Source: Calothrix sp. HK-06
GTDB taxonomy: Bacteria > Cyanobacteriota > Cyanobacteriia > Cyanobacteriales > Nostocaceae
DNA: 62,214 nt
Assembly (NCBI RefSeq): GCF_001904745.1
Contig: NZ_MRCD01000050.1
Location: forward strand, 1 to 62,214
Direction of reading: 5' to 3'
The notes beneath the pieces were generated by a model. That model did not search any database and was not told where the DNA came from. It saw nothing but the letters and a program-made list of their open reading frames with translations. This document shows positions 10,819 through 13,540 of the stretch, in pieces. The position numbers were made by a program, and so were the translations under genes. How positions within the stretch are numbered: the first letter of the stretch is position 1; each line of letters begins with the position of its first letter.

Positions 10819-11354
10819 TTTGTCGTCTCCGAAAGACTAACTTTGGATTATTTTGAAAAGCCAAACTTACGCAAGGCGCCCAACGAACGGTTAACTGCGC
10901 TCATACTGGACTGGCTCGCGCTCAACAATGATTAGCCTGCTTGTCTTTGCTCACATATAGAACTGAGGAAAGAACTTCTCAAATAGAGCGACCGCGAATA
11001 CACTTCTTCAATTATAGAAAAAAATAGCTGTTAATGATATCAGTATTCTTCTCAAATCTTTATAAATTTAATTATTTTTTAAAACTAATGCAAGTAGATC
11101 CACAAATTAAATGATTTTTTGTAACGAAAGTTACTAAATCCTAAAAATAGCAATCCTAAATGCGCGCCTGATGATTATATGCCCTTAAGCAGAACTATCA
11201 AATAAGTAGATTTAACTATTCAATAATTCTATATATATGTACTATCAATAGCGTAGGTTGGCTTTTGCGACAGTGCAACCCAACAAAACCTCTTGACATT
11301 ACTTGTAACATAAATGTAGTATGTAATATAGAAACAAACTAAAGGAGGAAAACA
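10819..11354. other. Long gap before the bL12/EF-Ts operon
   Basis: AT-rich with no supported ORF. It contains a phrase common in cyanobacterial spacers (gcgtaggttggcttttgcgacagtgcaaccc, about 11251-11282) and ends in the promoter annotated separately. The first ~100 bases are the upstream region of the receiver gene. Confidence 0.5.
11293..11322 (+). promoter_or_regulatory. Sigma70-type promoter of the bL12/EF-Ts operon
   Basis: TTGACA (11293-11298) is a perfect -35. TAGTAT (11317-11322), 18 bases further, is a fair -10. The expected start site is close to 11330, about 25 bases before the leader ORF. The region between and around the boxes is partly symmetric (TTACTTGTAAC...GTATGTAA), so an operator is possible. 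Confidence 0.6.
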
Positions 11355-11489
11355 ATGCAAGCAGCTTACTTAACAATCAACCAACCGCATCAAAACAATA
11401 CATACACCTACCAAGTAAGTAAACTAGCCATTGTTTTCCAGTATGAGCGAACATCGTTTGGGGCAAATTGTAATCGAGCGTCCGCGTAA
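11355..11489 (+). CDS. 44-residue leader ORF with near-perfect Shine-Dalgarno
   Basis: ATG at 11355 follows AAAGGAGGAAAACA, the strongest ribosome-binding site in the operon. The ORF reads MQAAYLTINQPHQNN... and ends at TAA 11487-11489. It overlaps the next gene (start 11443) by 47 bases in another frame. The peptide has no recognisable domain. The next gene has no good Shine-Dalgarno of its own, which suggests that translation of this peptide delivers ribosomes to it. It is either a regulatory leader peptide or a remnant; its function is inferred. Confidence 0.5.
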   Translation: MQAAYLTINQPHQNNTYTYQVSKLAIVFQYERTSFGANCNRASA

Positions 11490-12126
11490 CGGAAGAAGAA
11501 TAAGCCAAAAGAAAGTAACAGGGTATAAAAAGTTTCTTAACCGAATAACGCAAGAAGCAAGCGAAGACGGATTATTTAGTCATTACTTGATAAAAAACAA
11601 ATGGCGTACAAAATATTTTTCTGATAACTTATCACCATTGGAACGCTGGTTAAAATCCAAAGTTGGGCAACTTTGGGATAATATATACAGCGAATTGTGC
11701 CAGAAGATAGAAACCAAAACGCTTGCTGGACAACATTTGATATCTCATTTATGGCAAATGGTAGAGCGGAATGTAATATTTGTTGATGGACTACCATATT
11801 CTCAACAAAGATTTTACTACGCTTATCCTCTAGGAAAATGGAAAGACGCACTATATGTTCATCCAGAAACAGGTATTCTGTGTTTAGCGAAAAGGCTACC
11901 AAAAATTCCTAAGAAAAAGCCAGATGACCTGGTAGTAATAGATAAATATCGAGAGTATCGTAAGATAAACGACTTGTGGTATTTGCTCACCTTCGATATT
12001 CTATGCGGCGCCATAGATAAGAAATTTTATTCAGAAATTAGAAACATAGACGGAAGCATTTACATAGCTCGCAGGCGCCAGTGTAACAAAAAAGAAATCA
12101 AATGGATTTTGCAACAAATTAAATAG
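11443..12126 (+). CDS. Conserved protein of unknown function, first main gene of the translation-factor operon
   Basis: A 227-residue basic, soluble protein from the ATG at 11443; an upstream in-frame TTG at 11431 is less likely. It starts MSEHRLGQIVIERPRNGRR and contains LSPLERWLKSKVGQLWDNIY, HLISHLWQMVERNV and a VHPETGILC block. I recognise this as resembling a widespread bacterial family of unknown function with an IVERPR opening and an LaPL.R.L...VG..WD.vY core, but I cannot name it. The high Lys/Arg content would suit RNA or ribosome binding (inference). The bL12-like gene starts 10 bp after its stop. Confidence 0.6.
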   Translation: MSEHRLGQIVIERPRNGRRISQKKVTGYKKFLNRITQEASEDGLFSHYLIKNKWRTKYFSDNLSPLERWLKSKVGQLWDNIYSELCQKIETKTLAGQHLISHLWQMVERNVIFVDGLPYSQQRFYYAYPLGKWKDALYVHPETGILCLAKRLPKIPKKKPDDLVVIDKYREYRKINDLWYLLTFDILCGAIDKKFYSEIRNIDGSIYIARRRQCNKKEIKWILQQIK

Positions 12127-12136
12127 GAACAAATAA

Positions 12137-12514
12137 ATGTCATACAAAACACTAGAAATACTCGAACAACTCAAAGCCTTATCCGCACTCGAAACAACCG
12201 AACTAGTTGAGGATATTAAAGATACATTCAATCTACATACTGCACCTAGTTTCAGAAATTGTTTGCCCATACCTCTAATAGATTACGACATAGAGGCGCC
12301 CTTTGAATTTGATGTAGTTCTCGAAGCGGCGCCTGCCGATAAAAAAATATCAGTACTAAAAGCAGTACGTCAAATTACAGATTTAAGTTTAAAAGAAGCC
12401 AAAGATTTTGTAGAGTCACTACCAAAAACAATCAAATCTGGAATTAGTAAACCATTAGCTGAAGATATTAAAAAGCAGCTTGAAGATGCAGGCGCCAATG
12501 TTTCAATTATATAG
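12137..12514 (+). CDS. bL12-like ribosomal stalk protein paralogue
   Basis: A 125-residue homologue of ribosomal protein bL12 (L7/L12), the stalk protein that recruits translation GTPases. Both domains are present. The N-terminal dimerisation domain is [20 protein letters not shown]. The C-terminal factor-binding domain has [31 protein letters not shown] and the closing KKQLEDAGA. The flexible Ala/Gly-rich hinge of housekeeping L12 is replaced by a stretch with Pro, Phe, Cys and Ile ([17 protein letters not shown]), so the linker differs. The gene is not in a rplJ-rplL-rpoB setting, which argues that it is a second copy. Its stop overlaps the next gene. Confidence 0.85.
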
Positions 12515-12908
12515 TGATATTGAAAACTTGGTAAAAGCATTCGATAACTGCACATTGCCGCGCAGCGAATGGAACCATGCAGCGCATTTAACAGTTGCAC
12601 TATGGTATCTCAAAAACTATGAACAAGATGCAACAAAGCGCATTCGTGAAGGAATCCAAAAATATAATACAGCGATAGTTATTCAAACTACTCCAAACAG
12701 TGGTTATCACGAAACTATCACCTTATTTTGGATTCGTACAGTTCAAAATTTTCTATCAATTGCAGAGGAAAAATCAATATTACAACTAGCAAACGAGTTA
12801 GTTAGTAAATATCATCCAAACCTTCCTCTGCAATACTATAGTCGAGAATTACTAATGTCGTGGCAAGCGCGCGTAAATTGGGTTGAACCAGATTTAAAAC
12901 CTTATTAA
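12498..12908 (+). CDS. Conserved protein of unknown function with WNHAAHL motif
   Basis: About 136 residues, predicted helical and soluble. The start is uncertain: ATG 12498 ([11 protein letters not shown]) or ATG 12486. Both overlap the bL12-like gene's end, so translation is probably coupled. Notable motifs are [24 protein letters not shown] and [14 protein letters not shown]. The spaced His residues (HAAHL and YHET) could bind a metal, but that is a guess. I recall similar WxHxAHL...GYHET..T proteins in several phyla, without known function. Confidence 0.6.
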
Positions 12909-12931
12909 ATACAAGAAGGTGAAAATGTGAA

Positions 12932-13540
12932 ATGACGAACATATCAGCAAAACTAGTCCAAATGCTACGCAATAAAACCAATGCTGGAATGATGGACTGT
13001 AAAGAAGCATTAATTGCTTGTAACGGTGATATTGGTAAAGCAGAAGATTGGTTAAGAAAAAAAGGTATTACTTCAGCAGTAAATAAAGGAGAGCGTACTA
13101 CGGCAGAAGGGGTAATAGGTAGCTATATACACACAGTTGGAAAAGTTGGTGTATTAGTAGAAGTTAACTGCGAAACAGATTTTGTTGCGCGTACCGAGGA
13201 ATTTCAAACCCTTGTACGTAACATCGCAATGCAAATCGCAGCATCTCCAGATGTCGAATATGTAAAAGTCGAAGATATTCCTGCTGACATAGTAGGTAAA
13301 GAAAAATACATTGCAATGGGACGCGATGACTTAGCAAACAAGCCAGAAAATATTAGAGCCAAAATTGTTACAGGGAGAATTGAGAAGCTATTAAAAGAAA
13401 TGTGCTTACTCAACCAACCTTACGCGCGCGATCCCAATATAACAATCGAGGAACTAATCAAGCAAAACATCGCCAAACTAGGAGAAAATATCCAAGTAAA
13501 ACGTTTTGTACGTTTTGTATTAGGTGAAATTCCAAGCTGA
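12932..13540 (+). CDS. tsf: Elongation factor Ts (probable second copy)
   Basis: EF-Ts is the guanine-nucleotide exchange factor of EF-Tu. The 202-residue protein has the N-terminal UBA-like domain ([35 protein letters not shown]) and the EF-Tu-contact motif NCETDFVAR. It also has a C-terminal dimer region ending [20 protein letters not shown]. Length is close to the short cyanobacterial type. Normally tsf follows rpsB; here it is the last gene of an operon with a bL12-like gene and two unknowns, so it is probably a paralogue. GAAGGTG lies about 13 bases upstream. Whether a second tsf exists cannot be checked here. Confidence 0.88.

Follow-up and report, generated by a model that had tools for sequence, protein, structure and literature searches.

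A conserved operon of bL12 and EF-Ts paralogues in Calothrix sp. HK-06 with a candidate TrcR site over its promoter

We focus here on an operon at 11293-13540 on the + strand of a contig stretch of Calothrix sp. HK-06 (the window, by which we mean the whole 62,214 nucleotides (nt) analysed), in which a paralogue of the ribosomal stalk protein bL12 and a paralogue of the elongation factor EF-Ts stand beside two conserved open reading frames (ORFs), ORF1 and ORF3. Sequence comparisons indicate that this operon of translation-factor paralogues is real, conserved and under selection, and we lean, by a modest degree, towards reading it as an accessory stalk/EF-Ts operon that is repressed by TrcR and induced by translation stress. 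Four consecutive ORFs, spanning 11443-13540, follow a single promoter, and ORF3 starts inside the L12 gene with a 17-nt overlap:

11443-12126, + strand: ORF1, 227 amino acids (aa), a conserved cyanobacterial family of unassigned function
12137-12514, + strand: bL12 paralogue, 125 aa, in which both the N- and C-terminal domains are present and the hinge is not Ala-rich
12498-12908, + strand: ORF3, 136 aa, with invariant His/Glu residues (WxHxAHL ... GYHET)
12932-13540, + strand: EF-Ts paralogue, 202 aa, with one core repeat and TDFVAR retained

A first-pass annotation of this DNA had placed a bL12 with a non-standard hinge and an EF-Ts beside two unknown proteins in one operon, and both the domain models and the alignment agree with it. 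The bL12 paralogue scores 107.8 bits with NCBIfam TIGR00855 (cut-off 84.4), its N-terminal dimerisation and C-terminal GTPase-binding domains are above the Pfam cut-offs (PF16320 and PF00542), and its hinge, unlike that of the genome's other copy, is not Ala/Gly-rich in the alignment. The EF-Ts paralogue reaches 188.2 bits with TIGR00116 (cut-off 104.05), and TDFVAR, an important EF-Ts motif, is present in its alignment. For ORF1 and ORF3, no Pfam or NCBIfam model scored above cut-off and a PHROGs search gave nothing informative; profile searches of the PDB returned no match for ORF1 and nothing better than E 0.24 for ORF3. ORF3 may hold a metal site, judging by the invariant residues of its WxHxAHL and GYHET motifs.

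The same annotation allowed that these might simply be relocated housekeeping genes, to be judged by looking for second copies of rplL and tsf. The host genome (10 Mb, 99.98% complete) holds two L12 and two EF-Ts matches (E <= 0.001), which rules that reading out. The other L12 adjoins an rplJ-like gene and the other EF-Ts an rpsB-like gene, these neighbours being named from sequence, and since the genome holds one other copy of each, the operon L12 and EF-Ts are paralogues. In the L12 tree, a branch with 100/99 support separates the 30 operon-type proteins from 21 that are treated as housekeeping copies, one because it lies beside rplJ and 20 because each is the best match of its genome; the stalk paralogue therefore forms a separate lineage and did not arise by recent local duplication. 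The main EF-Ts of the genome has 313 aa versus 202 aa in the operon. The idea that a one-repeat EF-Ts is exotic was rejected, short EF-Ts occurring in most rows outside the window's family, among the matches listed. EF-Ts copy numbers across genomes were set aside because some counts resemble one gene in two pieces.

Conservation within the Calothrix clade is clear. The window's ORF1 shares 83-91% best-segment identity with the copies of Calothrix FI2-JRJ7, PCC 7103 and PCC 7716 and of Dulcicalothrix desertica PCC 7102, and 77% with that of Calothrix NIES-4105. All four genes are retained in four of the five clade relatives (L075, L076, L078 and L079; L076 is PCC 7103 and L078 is PCC 7102), with the ORF1 frame shortened at one end in L075 and L079, while the fifth, L077, is without ORF3. 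The chance cluster that the first-pass annotation had entertained is thus ruled out by this conserved neighbourhood. The ratio of nonsynonymous to synonymous substitution rates (dN/dS) between the window and its relatives lies at 0.09-0.42 over 13 gene pairs: 0.12-0.14 for ORF1 (three pairs), 0.18-0.42 for L12 (four), 0.13-0.35 for ORF3 (three) and 0.09-0.12 for EF-Ts (three). The comparison excluded every gene of L079, the ORF1 of L075 and the EF-Ts of L077, and L077 has no ORF3 to compare.

The timing of expression is suggested by the promoter, over which a candidate TrcR site lies:

11293-11322, + strand: sigma70-type promoter, TTGACA at 11293-11298, spacer of 18, TAGTAT at 11317-11322
11305-11322, - strand: candidate TrcR site ATACTACATTTATGTTAC, with 3 mismatches to the published trcR-promoter motif

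By themselves these hexamers are no proof of a promoter, since a promoter scan of the window yields 11 promoter-like sites and shuffled sequences yield 10.1. According to the published account (PMC10272220), TrcR, a repressor of Anabaena PCC 7120, recognises ATACTACACTTGTATTAC in the promoter of its own gene and covers TGTAGTAT over the -10 box TAGTAT of the trn tRNA array; its targets (trn, rtcB, rsgA and the rimK operon) are induced by the inhibitors abbreviated Cm, Sp and Sm and not by penicillin G or kasugamycin. In the window, the TGTAGTAT core at 11315-11322 (+ strand) likewise overlaps a -10 box TAGTAT, and it is retained at -10 in L075-L078, the four relatives with upstream DNA lined up, L079 having been left out of the alignment because its ORF1 start is broken. 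The longer motif has one mismatch in L077 and two in L078. ORF1 matches were found in 114 stretches of the GTDB collection, and we kept 80 of them (L075-L154), all cyanobacterial by record title and some cut by contig ends, together with the window as a set of 81 loci. At up to 3 mismatches, these loci contain 37 motif matches in 50,109 promoter-interval positions versus 7 in 919,043 other positions, where the promoter interval is the 620 nt before the upstream gene UBL (described below), or before ORF1 where UBL was not found. Reversed and complemented controls gave no match anywhere in the 81 loci, and 12 shuffled motifs gave 0-1 in the interval.

A regulator of this kind may also be present. 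The best TrcR-type site of the host genome (1 mismatch) starts 48 nt ahead of a 111-aa ORF that adjoins an HNH nuclease gene and has a weak match to an Arc-like repressor family (E 0.0027); in a table of the Anabaena report, the HNH gene alr0856 is numbered next to trcR (all0854) (PMC10272220). This ORF is likely the trcR of the host genome. Repression of the operon by TrcR is the best-supported of the new inferences, on sequence evidence only, and control by TrcR would entail induction under translation stress. The condition-dependent role, for instance in stress, that the first-pass annotation had proposed would thereby gain specific support.

Further TrcR-like sites were noted. One lies elsewhere in the window (19215-19232, - strand, 3 mismatches) and contains TGTAGTAT; it is 121 nt ahead of a gene (16485-19094, - strand) whose 869-aa product has NB-ARC and ASH-type matches, and also 340 nt before a gene that, judged by eye, looks like dihydrolipoamide dehydrogenase (19555, + strand). 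Another lies ahead of a short gene encoding PheRS core and FDX-ACB domains (L162, contig C167 of genome G000), possibly a spare phenylalanyl-tRNA synthetase.

Between promoter and ORF1 the window contains a further reading frame:

11341-11348, + strand: leader ribosome-binding site AAAGGAGG, read from sequence
11355-11489, + strand: leader ORF, 44 aa, with a strong ribosome-binding site, ending inside ORF1 and out of frame with it

Of the five ORFs that had been reported to start from a sigma70 promoter, the fifth thus exists, although its overlap with ORF1 had gone unstated. No ribosome-binding site of ORF1 itself was found in the window. Among 112 loci with a recognisable ORF1 start, which are related and partly duplicate records, 55 have an upstream ORF with a ribosome-binding site that ends out of frame inside ORF1, one has a ribosome-binding site of ORF1's own, three have a leader ending just before ORF1, and 53 have none of these. 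For the two commonest leader lengths (34 and 7 loci, chosen for an open leader), the other two frames contain stops in 34/34 and 30/34 and in 7/7 and 7/7 loci, and codon-position bias is slight. ORF1 may be reached via coupling or a +1 shift, in which case its synthesis would be tied to the translation state; the leader is thus a possible translation-state sensor.

The operon of the window has larger counterparts among the 81 loci, which the first-pass annotation had missed. We use the labels UBL, VWAT and Ro-like, coined in this analysis. UBL is a 66-aa protein upstream of ORF1, ending RPEAVYG, in 64 of the 81 loci, so labelled because of its size, its last residue, Gly, and, at some of the loci, a neighbouring ThiF gene; it has no family match in the models searched. 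VWAT, a 477-aa protein downstream of ORF1 with a vWA-like C-terminal part, occurs in 61 loci. Its resemblance to structurally characterised TROVE/Ro60 proteins is weak (E 0.016 in a single-sequence search, 0.1 with a profile), and its vWA match falls below the Pfam cut-off, so that 'Ro-like' is a working label only. ORF3 occurs in 18 loci, a conserved unknown, F15, in 43, a tandem GNAT upstream in 13 and a ThiF/E1-like gene further down in 37, ThiF and GNAT being assigned by Pfam; ten loci have ORF1 with none of UBL, VWAT, L12, ORF3, EF-Ts and GNAT. The gene order is GNAT, UBL, ORF1, L12, ORF3, VWAT, EF-Ts, and L084 (Mastigocoleus testarum) carries the full set except GNAT. Neither VWAT nor UBL had a match in the window's genome, nor VWAT in the genomes of the five clade relatives. 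By gene content, the Calothrix clade retains the translation arm alone of the larger operon, and we infer reduction of the operon rather than growth.

Downstream of the vWA gene in another stretch (L063:12555-13103) is a KptA/Tpt1 RNA 2'-phosphotransferase gene, a hint of RNA repair; its ORF cluster recurs in 6 of 41 stretches. A phage or plasmid origin was considered and, from searches with ORF1 and ORF3, rejected. Distant ORF1 relatives lie in five viral contigs and two plasmids, those of the viral contigs L245, L247, L248 and L249 at 33-38% identity; no other operon families were found in these four stretches, and a search of plasmids for ORF3 gave no relatives.

Many of the relatives' loci also carry an RNA element. 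ARAGORN calls 'tRNAs' near UBL and past the ORF1 stop, there most often by about 33 nt, with scattered anticodons and a common 5' sequence, TACATACTAGC or nearly so. Their architecture is an outer 7-bp (base pair) stem, an internal loop and a 9-bp stem, followed by a tRNA-like module. Real tRNA genes were rejected, and because the 5' sequence is shared and the calls lie inside a longer paired element, we treat them as one tRNA-like RNA. In 35 sequences hand-chosen from 95 references, 97.6% of 1186 cells are paired, and both partners vary in 16 of the 34 pairs; that number was reached by 4 of 500 shuffles, the covariation score by none. Slid controls are 31-53% paired, although the structure was derived from the same alignment, which favours the unslid register. 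Covariation within the alignment thus shows support for the proposed RNA structure. Rfam gave, above threshold at the elements, the tRNA part alone (in eight stretches, plus one element). In G222:C190:26172-26982, G130:C402:8989-9801 and G113:C1:2639280-2640099, five Y-RNA-like elements stand in a tandem row at a spacing of about 165 nt, and each row ends just before the VWAT gene.

Distribution was followed across 243 genomes of the order, with expected values that ignore phylogeny. The RNA model matches something in all 243, mostly near 1e-6, and matches of that strength are taken as true tRNAs. At 2.9e-12 or better there are matches in 75 genomes, 73 of them among the 83 with VWAT (25.6 expected); two genomes have the RNA without VWAT, and ten have VWAT, in some cases as fragments, without a strong RNA match. 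Neither the window nor any of the L075-L079 stretches contains the RNA, and matches in the window's genome do not exceed tRNA strength. ORF1, present in 41 genomes, occurs with VWAT in 31 (14.0 expected) and with ORF3 in 19 (6.1 expected), and ORF3 with VWAT in 27 (12.3 expected). At least two L12 matches occur with VWAT in 32 genomes (17.8 expected) and with ORF1 in 16 (8.8 expected).

Known kinds that the operon resembles are TrcR-controlled spare translation parts and Ro/Y-RNA operons. The likeness to the TrcR regulon of Anabaena PCC 7120 lies in TGTAGTAT over -10 TAGTAT and in targets that include translation and RNA-repair genes (the trn tRNA array, rtcB, rsgA, rimK); Table 1 of that report, on the other hand, names no L12 or EF-Ts, a comparison by named genes with hypotheticals aside (PMC10272220). 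The cyanobacterial supernumerary tRNA arrays cited there are stress-induced, spare parts of translation that stay silent until a translation inhibitor is present, whereas the window's operon supplies proteins, not tRNAs. In Salmonella (PMC7790460), the rsr-yrlBA-rtcBA operon serves RNA repair and is tied to tRNA or translation damage, and bacterial Y RNAs of the YrlA kind possess a tRNA-like domain. In the window's relatives a vWA/Ro-like protein is likewise accompanied by a Y-RNA-like RNA bearing such a domain, but the window has neither, the relatives' protein is only weakly TROVE-like, and the cyanobacterial family adds L12, EF-Ts, ORF1, ORF3 and the 66-aa Gly-ending protein. Housekeeping bL12 and EF-Ts (rplJL-rpoB, rpsB-tsf) share the L12 domains and TDFVAR with other EF-Ts core motifs; the window's copies differ in their separate operon, own L12 lineage, non-Ala-rich hinge and short EF-Ts. 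Our literature searches found no pairing of such systems with a stalk protein and EF-Ts.

In the mechanism that we favour, TrcR on the -10 box would normally silence the operon; when elongation is impaired, for example by ribosome-targeting inhibitors, TrcR would fall and the operon would be transcribed. The second stalk protein would then form stalk dimers or join existing ones, recruiting translational GTPases, the second EF-Ts would reload EF-Tu, and ORF1 and ORF3 would act on the stressed machinery by protecting, modifying or assembling it. The operon would descend from, or share an ancestor with, the larger operon of vWA/Ro-like protein and Y-RNA-like RNA, the Calothrix clade having its translation arm. 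Such a system bears on whether bacteria make functionally different ribosomes under stress, the candidate part being the stalk, which recruits translational GTPases, beside the exchange factor of EF-Tu. The promoter site predicts when the operon is on, the family brings ribosomal-protein paralogues together with a tRNA-mimicking Y-RNA-like RNA, and the ORF1 and ORF3 families gain a testable context. A bolder form of this mechanism is a switchable second elongation apparatus, in which the TrcR-released stalk protein and EF-Ts would build stress-specialised ribosomes that load different factors or array-encoded tRNAs. ORF1 and ORF3 would take part, as would, in many relatives, a vWA/Ro-like particle carrying the tRNA-mimicking RNA; we regard this bolder form as doubtful.

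Several observations weigh against the TrcR-controlled stalk/EF-Ts reading. With up to 3 mismatches, the 18-nt motif has 21 matches in the host genome versus 11 for the reversed control, and because of this background the window's site, itself at 3 mismatches, would not convince alone; TGTAGTAT is found three times in the window versus 2.8 expected by chance. The longer motif has more than 3 mismatches in L075 and L076, 44 of the 81 loci have no motif site in the promoter interval, and the 37 sites are not 37 independent cases because the loci are related. Pfam gave no match for the 111-aa trcR-like ORF, nor did a search of phages, which are reported to carry TrcR homologues (PMC10272220). In addition, L12 (31/81 loci) and EF-Ts (8/81) are minority members of the operon family, 18 of the 52 genomes with at least two L12 matches have neither ORF1 nor VWAT, and no single origin of the operon copies emerges from the EF-Ts tree.

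Other explanations draw on the same data. The L12-like and EF-Ts-like proteins could belong to an RNA-handling particle instead of the ribosome, with the stalk domains as the adaptor through which GTPases or tRNA-bound EF-Tu reach the vWA/Ro-like protein and its tRNA-like RNA. The tRNA-like module of that RNA, the excess of L12 duplicates in genomes with the vWA protein and the presence of the vWA gene or UBL in the same operon at 25 of the 31 L12 loci all point this way, but the window and its five relatives retain L12 and EF-Ts with no vWA match in their genomes, the RNA is likewise missing from their stretches and appears in the window's genome at tRNA strength only, and the L12 lies above the cut-off of a curated L12 model. 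We consider an adaptor role unlikely on balance.

The paralogues might instead substitute for a stalk or EF-Ts hit by a natural inhibitor or toxin, giving protection from self, competitors or phages. This would suit the patchy distribution of ORF1, the divergent L12 hinge and the promoter's link to translation inhibitors; set against it, a Pfam scan of eight proteins between 8103 and 14145 showed no resistance or toxin family, and no PADLOC match at E <= 0.01 was obtained for the four window proteins and three relatives, a result on which a known defence system was also rejected. Target replacement seems to us distinctly improbable, and least probable of all is that the genes are plain extra copies, transferred horizontally together for dosage and with no special role. 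Patchiness would fit that view too, as would an EF-Ts of the short type, like most rows outside the window's family among the matches listed, yet L12s of the operon from many genera cluster together as a set apart, and a dosage copy needs neither two conserved unknown genes nor a conserved regulatory site.

Long tRNA arrays lie near some members of the family. At least five ARAGORN tRNAs occur within 6 kilobases (kb) at 7 of the 81 loci, and at least ten lie within 6 kb of ORF1 in L147, L148, L152 and L153 and also in L081, L093 and L098. Within the stretch examined, the tRNAs of L147, L148, L152 and L153 lie almost wholly upstream, so long tRNA arrays may move together with the operon family.

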